Source: Corallococcus sp. NCRR (GTDB lineage: Bacteria; Myxococcota; Myxococcia; Myxococcales; Myxococcaceae). From it: a stretch of 64,000 bases of DNA. Location: assembly GCF_026965535.1 (NCBI RefSeq), contig NZ_CP114039.1:930001-994000 (forward strand). Reading direction: 5' to 3'. Position numbers and translations under genes: made by a program. Below the pieces are notes generated by a model that was not told where the DNA came from, ran no database searches, and saw only the letters and a program-made list of their open reading frames with translations. This document shows, in pieces, positions 15,287 through 40,305 of this stretch; position 1 is the stretch's first letter; the number at the start of each line of letters is the position of its first letter.

Positions 15287-15322
15287 TCGCCGGGCCCTCC
15301 ACGCGGAGGACGCCGGGTCTTC

Positions 15323-15455
15323 GCCAGGTCTTCGGACTCGCTGAAACGGTGTTCGTGCGAACGCTGTTCCTGCTTACCGCTGCGGGGCAGTCCCGGACTC
15401 ACACCGGGTTCCCTGGAAGCCCTCACGCCCCATGGCGTGAAGGCATCGATGACGG
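15323..15455 (-). promoter_or_regulatory. Cobalamin riboswitch 1, upstream of the A1-B1 unit
   Basis: In the transcript sense the conserved core reads GGGAA, then CCGGTGTGAGTCCGGGAC, then TGCCCCGCAGCGGTAA (plus-strand 15376-15414). The P1 closing strand AGTCCGAAGACCTGGC follows at 15323-15338. An upstream hairpin ACGCC/GGCGT sits before the GGGAA. This arrangement is the standard AdoCbl-type aptamer. The 5' boundary is estimated. B12 binding would be expected to repress A1-B1. Confidence 0.92.
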
Positions 15456-15484
15456 GGCGGGACTATGGCGACCCAGGAGCAAAG

Positions 15485-18191: not shown

Positions 18192-18212
18192 GCCATGCCC
18201 GGAGGCATGGGT

Positions 18213-18410
18213 CGTGGCAGGTCTTCGGACTCACAGGCGCGGGAGGCCCTCATCGGGTCACCCACCTACTGGCCGTCGCTTCCCAGCCCACCGAAGGGCC
18301 AGTGCTTGCGAGGACGGCGTTCGTTCCTGCTCACCGCTGCGGGGCAGTCCCGGATTCACACCGGGTTCCCTTTAAACGCCACACCGTGCGGATGCGGCGT
18401 ACCAACGACG
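18213..18410 (-). promoter_or_regulatory. Cobalamin riboswitch 2, upstream of the A2-B2 unit
   Basis: The core at plus-strand 18333-18370 is nearly identical to riboswitch 1: GGGAACCCGGTGTGAATCC then GGGACTGCCCCGCAGCGGT in the transcript sense. The closing P1 strand AGTCCGAAGACCTGCC is at 18216-18231. A longer peripheral insertion (about 70 nt, with CTGGCC/GGCCAG pairing) separates the core from P1 compared with riboswitch 1. Boundaries are estimated. Confidence 0.93.
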
Positions 18411-18464
18411 GGCGCTGGAGTATGGCGGACGACAGGGCTTGTCAATACAAGCGGGGCCAATGCC

Positions 18465-22080: not shown

Positions 22081-22095
22081 GGCAGCACCGCTGCC
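22081..22095 (-). terminator. Candidate riboswitch-controlled terminator hairpin
   Basis: In the transcript sense GGCAGC-GGT-GCTGCC lies just after the aptamer and is followed within about ten bases by a pyrimidine tract, TTCTCTCTTC, before the start of the receptor gene. This fits a terminator-type expression platform. Confidence 0.5.
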
Positions 22096-22099
22096 GCAC

Positions 22100-22312
22100 C
22101 CCTGGGCAGGTCTCCTGGCTGACAGGCTCCAGACGTGGGCGCACGCTGCGCCCTTCTGGAAGGAACCCTCCACCTTCCCTTCGCGGAACGCGAAAGTGGT
22201 GACAGCCGAGGCTTCCGGCCCTGGACCTCAGGGCAACCCGTTCACAGTGGCGGGACCGCGCCGGACTCACACCGGCTTCCCTCTTGAAGGCCCGGCATGG
22301 GCACCCAAGGGC
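22100..22312 (-). promoter_or_regulatory. Cobalamin riboswitch 3, upstream of the TonB receptor
   Basis: Textbook order in the transcript sense: GGGTGCCC, GAGGGAAGCCGGTGTGAGTC, CGGCGCGGTCCCGCCACTGT and the closing GTCAGCCAGGAGACCTGCC (plus strand 22104-22122). An optional hairpin GGTGACAGC-rich arm lies between. It differs clearly in sequence from riboswitches 1 and 2, so it is not part of that duplication. Confidence 0.95.
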
Positions 22313-22343
22313 CCGGCCCTTCTAGGAGGTCACCCCCAGCCCG

Positions 22344-34410: not shown

Positions 34411-34536
34411 GGGTGGGTTCCTCCGGAGAGATGGAACCCGGACCGTGCCCTCGGGAGGACGCACTGTCCACCGATGGATGCGGGCCCCGGTGGAATGGGT
34501 GGAAGGCCCTGACGCGCGGTGCTAGAGATTCAGCCC

Positions 34537-35157
34537 ATGAGCGCACCCATCGTCGTCCACATCTGGTCCGACTTCGTTTGACCCTGGTGTTACGTCGGCC
34601 TCGGTGAGGTCGAGAAGCTGAAGAAGGAATACGACGTCCAGGTGGAGTGGCACCCCTACTTCCTGCGCCCGGAGACGCCTCCGGAAGGGTTGCCGTTGCC
34701 CGAGTACGTGCGCCAGGGGATGAAGGACCCCAACAATCCCCTGAAGCTCCGCGCCGCGAAGGCCGGGCTGACGATGGTGCAGCGGGACATCATCCCGTCC
34801 ACGCGCCGGGCGCACGAGGCGGCGGAGTACGCGCGCGCTCAAGGCAGGCTGGAGCCCTTCCAGGCGGCCATCCTGCGGCGCTACTGGAGTGAAGGGCAGG
34901 ACCTCTGGCAGTGGGACACGCTGCGGGCCGCGGGCGTGGAGGCCGGGTTGGATCCGGACGCGCTCCAGCGCGCGGTGGAGGAAGGCCGCTACCGGCAGGT
35001 GGTGGAGGAGTCCGTGCGCGGGGCCCAGGAGATGGGCATCCGCGCGGTGCCCACCTTCATCCTGGGTGACAAGCTGGCCATCCAGGGCGCGCACGAGTAC
35101 CCATCGTTCCAGCGGGCCATGCAGCAGCTGGGCGCCAAGCCGAAGCAGCAGGGCTGA
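34537..35157 (+). CDS. FrnE/DsbA family oxidoreductase, probable selenoprotein (Sec at codon 15)
   Basis: Reading from ATG 34537 gives MSAPIVVHIWSDFV, then an in-frame TGA at 34579-34581, then PWCYVGLGEVEKLKKEY and a complete FrnE/2-hydroxychromene-2-carboxylate isomerase-like thioredoxin fold to the stop at 35155-35157 (206 aa). Relatives carry CPWC at this place, so TGA replaces the first Cys, giving U-P-W-C. An 8-bp hairpin with a GGU loop follows 13 nt after the TGA (34595-34613). The C-terminal part (IRAVPTFILGDKLAIQGAHE) has the family cis-Pro. Conventional calling would start at GTG 34642 and lose the active site. A nonsense mutation is the alternative, but the intact downstream frame and hairpin favour selenocysteine. 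Confidence 0.8.
34595..34613 (+). promoter_or_regulatory. Candidate bacterial SECIS hairpin
   Basis: TCGGCCTC (34595-34602), loop GGT, GAGGTCGA (34606-34613): eight pairs including one G-U. The apical loop begins 21 nt after the TGA and starts with G, within the accepted spacing and loop rules for bacterial SelB-binding elements. Confidence 0.7.
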
Positions 35158-35160
35158 GCG

Positions 35161-36522
35161 TTACAGGCCCTTCACCAGGATGAGCAGCCGCGCGAAGGTC
35201 TCCGGACCTTCGCCGGCCAGCCCCTTCGCGAAGTCCAGGAACGAGGGCGCCTGCTCCACGTGCTTGGCGACGACCTGGAACGCCTCCACGGCGGCGGCAT
35301 CCAGCGAGGCCACGGGCGTGCCGGGAGCCTCCAGCAGCGCCACCACGGCCGGGTGCCCGAGCAGCACCCAGCGCACCACGGAGGCGCGCAGCACGAGCAG
35401 GAACACGGCGTTCAGGAGGCTCTCGGCTTCCGTGAACGGGTGGCGTAGGACGTGGTTGAGCGCGTGGTGCAGGAAGTACTGGTGCACGCGTTCCCCGTGC
35501 AGGGCTTCCAGTGCGGAGCGCCGCGCGGCGTGGAGTTCCCAAGCCGGGTCGGGATGCGTGTCCGCGCCACCGTAGGACGCGCGCACGGCGTCCATGAGCG
35601 CGAGGAAGCGCGGGCTGCTCACGGCGGCCTCGCGTGAACGGAGCACGGCGCCGCAGATGCCGGCCCACGGGCCTCCGGGCAGCTCCAGCACTTGGAGCTG
35701 CGCGTGCAGGGACGCGAGCATGTCCGCGGATTCGTACTCGCGCAGGACCTGCGTGAGCCGCGCTTCGGCTGCTTCCGCGCGGCCCTCGCCTGCCTCCGGC
35801 GCGGAGTCCGACATGGGCTCACGCACCTCGATCGCGGAAGCGTCACTCGCGCTGGGATGCCGTGTCGCCTCGCCTGCCGCTGAACCGAACGCCGTCGTCC
35901 CCGGGAGGTAGAAGTCGCCCAGGTCCAGCGCCATGCGGCCCAGCGCGTACAGCCTCGCGGCGTACGGGACCTCGCGGCGATTCAAGAGCCGCAGCATCGC
36001 TTCGCGCACGGTGTCCGCGTGGGCCGTCCACGCGTCATCTCCCGCCGCCACCTGCCGCGCGACCTGCGGACGCAGGGCCTGTTCCTCGGGCACGGGCTCG
36101 CGCACCAGCGCGTCCTCCGCCAGCAGGCACAGGCGCGCCGTCTCCGGACATGCGAGCGACCCGGCCATCTCCACCTGCGCGCCCCAGCGCGTGAGCACTC
36201 GCGGGAAGACGGAGCAGCCGTCCGGCAACACCGCTTCGCCGTAGCGGCGCTGGAGCGAGCACAGCTTCGCTTCGTCCAGGAAGGCGCAGTGTCCGTCCGC
36301 GCGCTTTCCCAGGATGCCCGCCTGCTGGCCCGTGGCGCCGTCCGGGTTCGGTGTAATCAGCGCCGCGACGCGCGCCTCGTCCGGTGTGCCCGCGACCTTC
36401 TGGCGCAGCAGGCTCCAGCGCGACTCGCTGATGGGCACCGTCAGCCCCGCGCAGCAGGTGTCCTCGCACGCTTCCGCGATGCAACGGAAGCGCGCCATGT
36501 AGCGGGGGGCGGAGGCGGTCAT
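35161..36522 (-). CDS. FliB-like lysine N-methylase
   Basis: Protein of 453 aa of the flagellin lysine-N-methylase (FliB) family. The N-terminal Cys motif RFRCIAEACEDTCCAGLTVPI is diagnostic, with DGHCAFLDEAKLCSLQRRYG at about 95-115 and the FPRVLTRW segment. The C-terminal half is helical and less conserved. Myxobacteria lack flagella, so the substrate must differ. It is convergent with the selenoprotein gene, with three bases between the stops. Confidence 0.85.
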   Translation of the reverse strand: MTASAPRYMARFRCIAEACEDTCCAGLTVPISESRWSLLRQKVAGTPDEARVAALITPNPDGATGQQAGILGKRADGHCAFLDEAKLCSLQRRYGEAVLPDGCSVFPRVLTRWGAQVEMAGSLACPETARLCLLAEDALVREPVPEEQALRPQVARQVAAGDDAWTAHADTVREAMLRLLNRREVPYAARLYALGRMALDLGDFYLPGTTAFGSAAGEATRHPSASDASAIEVREPMSDSAPEAGEGRAEAAEARLTQVLREYESADMLASLHAQLQVLELPGGPWAGICGAVLRSREAAVSSPRFLALMDAVRASYGGADTHPDPAWELHAARRSALEALHGERVHQYFLHHALNHVLRHPFTEAESLLNAVFLLVLRASVVRWVLLGHPAVVALLEAPGTPVASLDAAAVEAFQVVAKHVEQAPSFLDFAKGLAGEGPETFARLLILVKGL

Positions 36523-36531
36523 CGCGCCAGT

Positions 36532-39500
36532 CTACTTGCGGCCCAGCGCCTTCTTCACGAATCCCCAGAAGCGGCCCGCGCGATCCTTCAGGTCCGCGCC
36601 CCGGCGCTCCTCGGCGGCGCTCACCGCCTCCTTGCTCACCTGGAGCTGCTTCTGGAGCTCCTCCGGCGAGTAGCGCGTGGCGAGCGTCGCCTTCACCTCC
36701 TTGCGCGTCGAATACTCACGCGCCTCCACGTGCAGCACGCATTCGGAGTCCAGCTTGAGCGTCACCGCCACGCGCACGGAGCCCTTGGGGCCCTTCGGCA
36801 GGCCTTCCATGCGCACGGTGCCCAGGTACTCGTTGGCGGAGATGTGGTTGTCCTCGCCCTGGAAGACGGACAGCTCCATCCGCTCTTCGTTGTCCTGCGA
36901 CGTGCTGATGGCGAACGAGCGCTGCGTGGGCAGCGGGCTGTTGCGCTCGATGACGCGCTTGAAGCCGCCGCCGGGCATGGCCACGCCAATGGTCATGGGC
37001 AGCACGTCGATGAGCACCACGCTGCTCACCTTGTCCACCGAGCCCGAGTACAGCGCCGCGCCCAGCGCCACGGCCTCGTCCGCGTTGACGCTCGCCTGCG
37101 CGTTCTTGCTGAACAGGCCCTTGAGCTTGTCGCGCACCAGCGGCATGCGGCTCATGCCGCCCACCAGGATGATGTCGTCCACCTCCGAGGCCTTCAGCTT
37201 GGAGTCCAGGAGCACGTCGCGCACCACGTCGATGGTGCGGTTGAGCAGCGGGTCGCAGATCTTCTCCAGGTCCTGGCGCGACATCGTCACGCGCAGGTCC
37301 CGGGGACGGCCCGCGTCGTCCATCATCAACATGGGGATGTGGACCTCGAACGTGCTGCGCTCGGACAGCGCCATCTTCGCGCGCTCGGCGGCGTCGCCCA
37401 CGCGAGACAGGGCGATGCCGTCCCCGTTGAACGCGATGCCTTCCTTCTCCTGGAAGCGCTCCAGGAGGAAGTCGACGATGAGGTTGTCGAAGTCGATACC
37501 GCCCAGGAAGATGTCGCCGCCGGTGCCCAGCACCTCGAAGACGTTCTTCTCGATGCGCAGGATGGTCGCGTCGAAGGTGCCGCCGCCCAGGTCGTAGACG
37601 AGCACCTTCTTGTTGAGCTCGCGGTTGAGGCCGTACGCGAGCGCCGCGGACGTGGGCTCGTTGAGGATGCGCTCCACCTTGAGGCCGGCCATCGCGCCGG
37701 CCTTGCGGACCGCTTCACGCTGGGGCTCGGAGTAGTAGGCCGGCACCGTCACCACGGCGCGCTCCACCTTCTGGTTGAGGTGGGTTTCGGCCATCTCCTT
37801 GCACTCGCGCAGGATGATGCCCTGCACCTCTTCCAGCGACAGCACGTCGTTGCCCAGGCGCACGGCGGCGCGGCCGGCGGCGTCGGGGGTGATTTCGTAG
37901 TGGAAGCGCTCGCGCACCTGCTTCACCACGGCGCTGTCGTAGGGGCGGCCCACCAGGCGCTTCGCGCCGTAGATGGTGTGCGTGGGCCGCAGCACGAGCT
38001 GGTTCTTCGCGCGATGGCTGACGAGCAGCTTGTTCTGCGCGCTCAGCGAGATGACGGACGGGATGGTGTTGTAGCCCTCGCGCGAGCGGAGCACGACGGG
38101 ACGGCCGTTGGACAGGAGCGCCACGCAGGAGTTGGTGGTGCCCAGGTCGATGCCGATGACCGGCCCCGTGCCGGCCAGCGTCTGCGGCGGCGTGAGGTAG
38201 ATGGGGCGCACCTGGCCGTTGGCGTCCAGGGCCGGGGGCGCGGGGGCCACCGGCGCGGCGGCGGGCGCGAGCGTCGCGGGGGCGACCGGAGCGGGCGCGG
38301 GCGGGGCCTGGCGCACGGAGGGAGGAAGCACGCTCGGCGGCGGCTGTGGCGGCGGAGGGGCCACGGGCCGCGCGGCGGGACGGCCCCCGGAGGACACGGG
38401 CTCGCGCGCGAGTTCCAGCGGCCCGTCGTCGTCGATGGACAGGTCCAGGTCGAACTCGGCGCTGCCGCCGGACGGGCTCTGCGGCGCGGGAGGCTGCTGC
38501 GGGACAGCGCGGCCCCAGGACGACGCCGGCTCCTGCGAGAGGCCGGGCGCAGCGGGACGGTTGGCGAAGGAGCCGGGCTCCAACGGCAGCTCACCGGGAG
38601 CGTGTGCCCCGGGACGGCCCGCCACGGATCCAGGTTCGCGGCCCAGCCCCGGAGCACGTCCCGCCGCGGATCCAGGCTCCAGTCCCAGGCCCGGAACGGA
38701 AGGACGTCCGGCGGCGGATCCGGGCTCACGCCCCAGGCCCGGCGCGGTGGTGCGCCCGCCAGAGGAGCGCGGTTCAAGGCCCAGGCCCGGCGCGGCGGGA
38801 CGACCGCCAGAAGAGCGCGGCTCAAGTCCCAGACCCGGCGCGGCGGGGCGACCGCCAGAAGAGCGCGGCTCAAGCCCCAGACCCGGCGCGGCACGGCCGG
38901 CGGCGGATCCAGGTTCGCGCCCAAGTCCCGGCGCGCGACCAGCGGCGGATCCAGGCTCCAGTCCCAGGCCCGGCACGGAGCGACCGGCGGCGGATCCAGG
39001 CTCGCGCCCAAGTCCCGGCGCGCGACCGGCGGCGGATCCAGGCTCGCGCCCAAGTCCCGGCGCACGGCCAGCGGCGGAGCCCGGCTCACGCCCCAGCCCC
39101 GGCGCGGCGGCACGGCCGGGCGAGGATGCGGGCTCACGCCCCAGCGGACGCTGACGGCCCGGCGAAGAAGTGGGCTCGCGCGCCAACTCCAGCGGCGCGT
39201 CGTCATCCAGGGAGGACAGGTCGAAGTCGAACTCGGCGCTGCCACCAGAGGGCTTCGCGGGCGCCACCGGCGGCGCCGCGGGCGGAGGCGCAGGGGCCGC
39301 GCGCTGCACGGGCGCCGGAGGCACCGGCGCGGCGCGAGGCGGCGGCTCGGGGGAGACATCCGAGAAGTCCAGTTCGAACCCACCCGCGTCGGCCGAAGCC
39401 GCGCCGTCCTCCACGGAGAGCCCCACTTCGATGGGCACCTCCTCCAGCGGCTCCCCCATCGCGATGGGCTCTCCCACGACCGGAGCCTCGAACTCGAAGT

Positions 39501-40305
39501 CGAGCCCCGGCAGCGGCTCGTCGCCTCCCGACAGCACGCCCTGCACGGTGGGCGGAGGCGTCCCCGCGATGAGCTCATCCAGCGGGATGTCCACGTCGTT
39601 CGCGGAGTCCGCCTGCGCCAGCCCCATGTCCTCGTCGGGCGAGCCCAACGAGAACGGCTCGTCCGAGCCGCCCAGGGACAGCGGCTCGTCCGCGCCGGGC
39701 GCGGGACTGGACGGAGCATCCAGGTCATCGAACAGCGAATCGAGCGCGGCACCACCCACCGCCGGCTGCGCGGGCGGTGCGACGGCCGCGGGCCGGGGCG
39801 CAGCGGCGGGCCGGGGCGCGGCGGCGGCTGGCGGCGCGGCCACGGGCGGACGCACCGGCGCGATGCCCGGCGTCGTCAACGGCGCGATGCCTGGCGCGGC
39901 CAGCGGCGCGATGCCCGGCGCGACCATCGGAGCAATGGACGGCAGCGGCGCGGCCGGCGCGGTGCTGCCACCCGGCTTGCGCTGGAGCATCAGGTCCACG
40001 AGCGCGCGGCTCGCGGTGTCCAGGTCCTGGAACTGCAACCCCATGCCCGGAGGCCCCGCGGGGTCGTTCACATCGCGCACCCAGCGCACGGTCGCGGTGC
40101 CCTGGAGCACGCGCACGCCGTTGGCGATCTGCACCTCGAAGCGCACGGGCGTGCCCACCGGCTGCGGCGTGCGCGAGCGGATGAACATGCCCCCGGGGCT
40201 GATGTTGGTGGCGAACTCCTCGGTGAAGCTCCCCACGGTCTCATGCTTGAGCTTCACCAACAGACCGACCGACTTGCGGTCCGAGGTACGCCGACCTTGA
40301 TCCAT
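36532..40305 (-). CDS. PilZ domain - repeat linker - Hsp70 (DnaK-like) fusion protein
   Basis: Protein of 1257 aa. A PilZ domain at about residues 1-115 has RxxxR (R6/R10) and NxSxxG (N34, S36, G39), the residues that bind cyclic di-GMP in family members. Residues about 120-370 are acidic/Pro-rich. About fifteen 14-16-residue repeats (LGREPGSAAGR type) cover about 375-602, flanked by two copies of a GGSAEFD-DLS-DDD-PLELAREP motif. From about 715 to the end is an Hsp70 ATPase and substrate-binding region (IGIDLGTTNSCVALL, VYDLGGGTFDATIL, VGGMSRMP), shortened at the C-terminal lid. The fusion suggests a chaperone controlled by a second messenger; this is inference. Confidence 0.92.
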   Translation of the reverse strand: MDQGRRTSDRKSVGLLVKLKHETVGSFTEEFATNISPGGMFIRSRTPQPVGTPVRFEVQIANGVRVLQGTATVRWVRDVNDPAGPPGMGLQFQDLDTASRALVDLMLQRKPGGSTAPAAPLPSIAPMVAPGIAPLAAPGIAPLTTPGIAPVRPPVAAPPAAAAPRPAAAPRPAAVAPPAQPAVGGAALDSLFDDLDAPSSPAPGADEPLSLGGSDEPFSLGSPDEDMGLAQADSANDVDIPLDELIAGTPPPTVQGVLSGGDEPLPGLDFEFEAPVVGEPIAMGEPLEEVPIEVGLSVEDGAASADAGGFELDFSDVSPEPPPRAAPVPPAPVQRAAPAPPPAAPPVAPAKPSGGSAEFDFDLSSLDDDAPLELAREPTSSPGRQRPLGREPASSPGRAAAPGLGREPGSAAGRAPGLGREPGSAAGRAPGLGREPGSAAGRSVPGLGLEPGSAAGRAPGLGREPGSAAGRAAPGLGLEPRSSGGRPAAPGLGLEPRSSGGRPAAPGLGLEPRSSGGRTTAPGLGREPGSAAGRPSVPGLGLEPGSAAGRAPGLGREPGSVAGRPGAHAPGELPLEPGSFANRPAAPGLSQEPASSWGRAVPQQPPAPQSPSGGSAEFDLDLSIDDDGPLELAREPVSSGGRPAARPVAPPPPQPPPSVLPPSVRQAPPAPAPVAPATLAPAAAPVAPAPPALDANGQVRPIYLTPPQTLAGTGPVIGIDLGTTNSCVALLSNGRPVVLRSREGYNTIPSVISLSAQNKLLVSHRAKNQLVLRPTHTIYGAKRLVGRPYDSAVVKQVRERFHYEITPDAAGRAAVRLGNDVLSLEEVQGIILRECKEMAETHLNQKVERAVVTVPAYYSEPQREAVRKAGAMAGLKVERILNEPTSAALAYGLNRELNKKVLVYDLGGGTFDATILRIEKNVFEVLGTGGDIFLGGIDFDNLIVDFLLERFQEKEGIAFNGDGIALSRVGDAAERAKMALSERSTFEVHIPMLMMDDAGRPRDLRVTMSRQDLEKICDPLLNRTIDVVRDVLLDSKLKASEVDDIILVGGMSRMPLVRDKLKGLFSKNAQASVNADEAVALGAALYSGSVDKVSSVVLIDVLPMTIGVAMPGGGFKRVIERNSPLPTQRSFAISTSQDNEERMELSVFQGEDNHISANEYLGTVRMEGLPKGPKGSVRVAVTLKLDSECVLHVEAREYSTRKEVKATLATRYSPEELQKQLQVSKEAVSAAEERRGADLKDRAGRFWGFVKKALGRK
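38500..39185 (-). repeat. 42-48-bp tandem repeats in the PilZ-Hsp70 linker
   Basis: About fifteen units encode variants of LGREPGSAAGRAPG and LGLEPRSSGGRPAAPG. DNA identity between neighbouring units is high, several being near-identical, indicating recent expansion and probable length polymorphism. Confidence 0.85.

Follow-up and report, generated by a model that had tools for sequence, protein, structure and literature searches.

A predicted UPWC selenoprotein of the FrnE/DsbA type in Corallococcus sp. NCRR and the exchange of Sec and Cys among its relatives

The locus and its reading frame

The window analysed here is a 64,000 nucleotide stretch of the Corallococcus sp. NCRR genome, which is closed as a single contig of 9.79 Mb. 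It contains a predicted FrnE/DsbA-like selenoprotein gene (Table 1). The frame that starts at ATG 34537 is interrupted solely by a TGA (34579–34581), at the position of the first Cys of a CPWC motif, and codons 16 to 18 are Pro-Trp-Cys. Beyond the TGA the frame is open for 191 codons (34582–35154), up to the TGA at 35155–35157. Re-reading of the sequence agrees with the original prediction on both of these points. It had also been proposed that annotation pipelines shorten the gene, and default ORF calling does begin mechanically at GTG 34642, giving a product of 171 aa without the UPWC site.

The read-through protein scores 114.3 bits with the Pfam DSBA family (PF01323; cut-off 25.6) and, apart from Sec15, has a single redox-active candidate in Cys18, its only Cys. 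None of the NCBIfam 20.0 models is passed by the 206 aa protein, with NF041057 (Rcas_1661 (seleno)lipoprotein, DsbG-like) scoring 42 bits, below its curated cut-off of 190. With ORF calling that shortens such genes, and with this protein passing none of the NCBIfam 20.0 models, databases can easily miss the active site. Residues W10, D12, V14, P16, W17, and C18 are invariant in aligned sequences that are 45–90% identical. Pro172 is presumably the cis-Pro expected of a thioredoxin fold, the cis state being assumed from what is known of the family. The sequence 3' of the TGA has a dN/dS of 0.10–0.37 and a third-position excess, indicating purifying selection.

A block that is conserved in Corallococcus, CTGACGCRCGGTGCTAGAGA, ends just 5' of the ATG. 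It has no obvious ribosome-binding site and is possibly the promoter of a near-leaderless mRNA; a σ70 promoter scan gave no match. The neighbouring gene, convergent with the selenoprotein gene, encodes a protein of 453 aa. Its N-terminus is rich in Cys (CIAEACEDTCC), and it has no match in Pfam at a threshold of 0.001. The next gene along the window encodes a large protein with a PilZ domain at its N-terminus and an Hsp70 domain at its C-terminus. Elsewhere in the window, three cobalamin riboswitches are found within 7 kb, each above the Rfam gathering score.

Table 1. Positions of the features of the selenoprotein gene and of other features in the window
Feature	Position	Strand	Description or basis
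Cobalamin riboswitches	15306–15465, 18199–18422, 22088–22323	-	above Rfam gathering score
Conserved block	34505–34536		conserved in Corallococcus
Predicted FrnE/DsbA-like selenoprotein CDS	34537–35157	+	206 aa with Sec15, ATG start, TGA stop; translated with TGA=U
Codon 15 (UGA), predicted Sec and attacking position in U-P-W-C	34579–34581	+	TGA/TGC/TGT comparison of homologues
Cys18 codon (TGT), predicted resolving residue	34588–34590	+	invariant column in alignment
Hairpin resembling a bacterial SECIS (stem 8 bp, loop GGU)	34595–34613	+	RNA folding, covariation, synonymous constraint
Hairpin stem, 5' side	34595–34602	+	TCGGCCTC
Hairpin loop	34603–34605	+	GGT
Hairpin stem, 3' side	34606–34613	+	GAGGTCGA
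Pro172 of VPT loop	35050–35052	+	V171-P172-T173 invariant
453 aa protein	35161–36522	-	Cys-rich N-terminus
PilZ/Hsp70 protein	36532–40305	-	PilZ N-terminal, Hsp70 C-terminal

Codon 15, the hairpin and the Sec machinery

A family-wide search was made with the window protein against 96 genomes, and the loci found were then read codon by codon. Codon 15 is TGA in 42 of 70 myxobacterial homologues and TGC or TGT in the remaining 28, no other codon being present, and further internal stops or frameshifts are absent from all 70. An orthologue is found in 16 out of 16 Corallococcus genomes, although split in one. The full-length same-genus orthologues have TGA at codon 15 in 12 cases out of 15 and TGT or TGC in three. 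The named relatives at 97–98% identity are Corallococcus species; the Sec and Cys versions of the genus span 82–98% identity to the window protein, with Sec machinery present in all. Three Corallococcus use Cys yet keep the machinery, which means that Sec is not indispensable. The Cys orthologues start at an ATG in the same place as the window gene.

A scan of named loci, covering the best 80 and overlapping the set of 70 homologues, found TGA in 57, TGC in 13, and TGT in 8 of the 78 that are named. Within these best 80 loci, TGA is present in Corallococcus, Archangium, Pyxidicoccus, and one Myxococcus, and Cys codons are present in the other Myxococcus, Citreicoccus, C. praedator, and C. terminator. 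Relatives from the Anaerolineae (Chloroflexi) in the same best 80 loci, at 42–52% identity, mostly have TGA, with some TGC or TGT. A record titled Comamonas sp. KCTC 72670 holds a Myxococcus-type copy of the gene and is probably mislabelled. The comparison of orthologues at codon 15 that had been suggested as a check thus shows a clean exchange of TGA, TGC, and TGT together with covariation of the hairpin. Random decay of the frame, named as contrary evidence, is not seen; the frames are intact and under the purifying selection described above.

An 8 bp hairpin with a G-starting GGU loop had been noted 13 nt 3' of the TGA. It is present, the same structure is predicted by RNA folding, and 21 nt separate the UGA from its loop. 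The bSECIS model calls for a loop of 3–9 nt, a stem of 4–16 bp, a G within the first two loop positions, a spacing of 16–37 nt, and an MFE of -7.5 kcal/mol or lower (PMC13188914). The window hairpin satisfies all of these, having a GGU loop, 8 bp, 21 nt, and -12.7 kcal/mol (45 nt fold). Folded by itself, in this GC-rich DNA, it is no more stable than expected by chance, having a z score of -0.54, with 48 out of 200 shuffles folding equally well.

Synonymous diversity of the hairpin codons versus the rest of the gene is 0.109 versus 0.341 in the myxobacterial Sec genes and 0.445 versus 0.283 in the Cys genes; the corresponding values in the Anaerolineae are 0.061 versus 0.514 (Sec) and 0.583 versus 0.565 (Cys). 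Nowhere along the gene is synonymous diversity lower than in the hairpin codons, and this holds in Sec genes only. Likewise, folding compared against synonymous recoding gave mean z scores of -2.09 and -1.71 for the Sec sets versus -0.03 and 0.20 for the Cys sets. Among 17 distinct Sec sequences, 98.3% of stem cells are paired, compared to 22.7–49.6% with slid partners, and the first base of the loop is G in all 17. Two-sided changes occur at two stem pairs (C-G/U-A and A-U/U-A) in these sequences, and the covariation score of the stem was reached by none of 500 shuffles, the support coming from these two pairs only and largely from one change common to the Anaerolineae clade, the orthologues of which carry the covarying hairpin TCGGCCA-GGGTG-TGGTCGA. 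This covariation became clear once the set was widened by the Anaerolineae together with two divergent sequences from myxobacteria; within the myxobacteria alone it is too thin, since the stem hardly varies there, and 29 of 500 shuffles did as well. Judged from these alignments, the hairpin is maintained by selection in the Sec genes and not in the Cys genes.

The sel genes had been proposed as a further check, their absence to count against a selenoprotein, and all of those sought were found in the genome: SelA (568 bits, above cut-off), SelB (328 bits, cut-off 242), SelD (388 bits, above cut-off), and tRNA-Sec (ARAGORN tRNA-SeC, 70.5 bits, anticodon TCA). The formate dehydrogenase alpha subunit gene at genome positions 1950317–1953139 carries a single in-frame TGA, flanked as in NQARI-U-HASTV, and is a predicted second selenoprotein gene of this genome. 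With this gene and the machinery present, Sec decoding is expected here independently of the FrnE-like gene. SelA and tRNA-Sec are above cut-off in all 42 of the TGA genomes. One or the other is missing from 3 of 28 Cys genomes versus 0 of 42 TGA genomes (p about 0.06), two of these three being MAGs about 80% complete, so that an association between lost machinery and the Cys codon is only suggestive.

Interpretation of the TGA codon and the direction of change

The gene almost certainly encodes a predicted cytoplasmic thiol/selenol oxidoreductase of the FrnE type and DsbA family, with a UPWC active site produced through SelB-dependent UGA recoding. What was shown here by computation comprises the open frame, the exchange at codon 15, the Sec machinery, the FrnE fold and, for the hairpin, both constraint and covariation. 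The U-P-W-C oxidoreductase decoded through a SECIS hairpin, as originally proposed, is strongly supported by the sel genes, the codon exchange, the covariation, and the intact frames.

If the TGA were a nonsense mutation and the frame beyond it a decaying remnant, the gene would be a pseudogene, as the shortened 171 aa frame of the default ORF caller might imply. This is extremely unlikely, since the TGA is kept at 45–98% protein identity in Corallococcus, Archangium, Pyxidicoccus, some Myxococcus, and the Anaerolineae, dN/dS downstream of it is 0.10–0.37, and a second internal stop or frameshift occurs in none of the 70 homologues. Conservation of both the TGA and the frame refutes a pseudogene. 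There is practically no chance that the true codon is TGC or TGT, obscured by a sequencing or assembly error. Twelve separate assemblies from the genus share the TGA, as do dozens of others from isolates and metagenomes, and it is accompanied by a hairpin constraint that is missing from the Cys genes, although three Corallococcus relatives do genuinely have TGC or TGT. The independent assemblies refute such an error.

Translation could in principle begin at GTG 34642, where the 171 aa frame is open, leaving the first 14 codons and the TGA untranslated. The product would be missing its first strand and the entire UPWC active site, yet W10, D12, V14, P16, W17, and C18, all upstream of this GTG, are invariant and the Cys orthologues begin at an ATG in the corresponding position; a shorter product is accordingly most improbable. 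It is very unlikely that readthrough or suppression puts another amino acid, Trp or Cys, at the UGA. Sec15 is a prediction from sequence, but homologues have Cys and never Trp at this position, the genome has a complete Sec system, and the hairpin, with its G-starting loop and 21 nt spacing, fits the bSECIS.

For the predicted selenoprotein, the alignment-based AlphaFold model (pLDDT 91.7) was used in place of a single-sequence one of low quality (pLDDT 51). The best five PDB matches of this model are all FrnE of Deinococcus radiodurans (5co3, E 1.3e-15, TM 0.81), to which the sequence also matches (E 5.7e-28). The N-terminus, MSAPIVVHIWSDFV, leads directly into the first strand, as read from the sequence and the model, and a signal peptide may be lacking. 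During translation, SelB-GTP-Sec-tRNASec bound to the hairpin would decode the UGA, and Sec is presumably inserted at codon 15. In the enzyme, the disulfide of a substrate would be attacked by Sec15, or Sec15 and Cys18 would join in a selenenylsulfide; Cys18 would be the resolving residue, and the VPT loop would complete the active site. As Sec15 and Cys18 are the only redox residues and a C-terminal CXXXXC is missing, an electron donor other than such a motif of its own would be needed. The UPWC protein may have reductase or isomerase activity.

At least five changes between Sec and Cys are required by the tree of 70 sequences. Three Corallococcus Cys genes (L030–L032) nest inside Sec relatives and keep the same stem, with a GCC loop, which suggests a relic SECIS and a change from Sec to Cys. 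A wider tree of 126 rows, with named-scan sequences from the best 80 loci, can be explained by ten changes when the root is Sec and every change is a replacement by Cys, versus 25 when the root is Cys and every change is a gain of Sec. This tree came from a quick search, many of its forks are weak, and its outgroup is itself Sec; one outgroup row, L201, was selected with a loose pattern and has a very long branch. On balance, Sec may well be ancestral in the UPWC clade of the myxobacteria and Anaerolineae, with about ten replacements by Cys, mostly with the Sec machinery kept and relic SECIS hairpins left behind. In bacteria, Sec-to-Cys replacement has been considered rare and mostly a matter of FdhA and SelD (PMC1794560, PMC13188914), and remnant SECIS-like structures in such cases were already noted in the 2006 survey (PMC1794560). 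Repeated replacement in the UPWC clade, if true, would contradict this view of rarity and would provide natural near-isogenic Sec/Cys pairs inside one genus. Likely Sec-to-Cys conversions are added to a family for which the 2006 survey listed none. What gives the gene its value is the set of natural Sec/Cys pairs that Corallococcus offers, together with the likely repeated loss of Sec. Since both versions occur in one genus, with the machinery in all, the benefit of Sec in an enzyme of a soil bacterium is directly testable.

Relationship to known DsbA-like selenoproteins and FrnE

COG2761 is taken here to be the FrnE group. A DsbA-like UXXC selenoprotein family was placed under this COG in the Sargasso Sea paper of 2005 (PMC1088965), a DsbA-like selenoprotein of Anaeromyxobacter dehalogenans was included in the 2006 survey (PMC1794560), 'DsbA 1' was catalogued in 2008 (PMC2398784), and 'DsbA-like form 1, PF01323, UxxC' was tabulated in a 2026 review (PMC13188914). 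The original description of the selenoprotein as undescribed therefore fails at the family level, on the 2005 and 2006 listings. The known family has the same PF01323 domain, Sec as the first residue of UxxC, and a SECIS just downstream; its entries are predictions, mainly from marine metagenomes, and it is by their description that they are likened to the UPWC clade.

Anaeromyxobacter dehalogenans belongs to the same order as Corallococcus (PMC1794560 for its selenoprotein), and TGA homologues are present in order-mates that appear to be Anaeromyxobacteraceae (L192–L196). These are UPFC rather than UPWC, are about 30% identical, and have a different, more distal hairpin, gcagcct-GGTC-aggctgc, which places the window gene in a sister clade. 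The sister DsbA-like selenoprotein subfamily, UPFC or UPYC with this hairpin, is seen in several order-mates and in Archangium-like genomes. No description of a UPWC clade in Corallococcus, Myxococcus, and the Anaerolineae with repeated Sec-to-Cys change in lineages retaining the Sec machinery was found in the literature searched, which covered few subscription journals, and the clade is possibly new to the literature.

FrnE of D. radiodurans (DR_0659; PDB 5co3, 5cnw, 5cp1, 5xwh) is like the window protein in fold, sequence, and CPWC position, but has Cys where the window protein has the predicted Sec. Both are cytoplasmic by prediction, FrnE proteins being predicted cytoplasmic thiol oxidoreductases (PMC8945050). 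Disulfide isomerase and reductase activities have been reported for Deinococcus FrnE, the mutants of which are sensitive to cadmium and diamide (PMC8945050). The D. radiodurans protein needs its C-terminal CXXXXC for regeneration, whereas the window protein has none; this motif is optional, being missing also from S. roseofulvus and D. maricopensis FrnE (PMC8945050). The FrnE-like gene is a well-supported further member of a known selenium-containing family, rather than a new kind of system.
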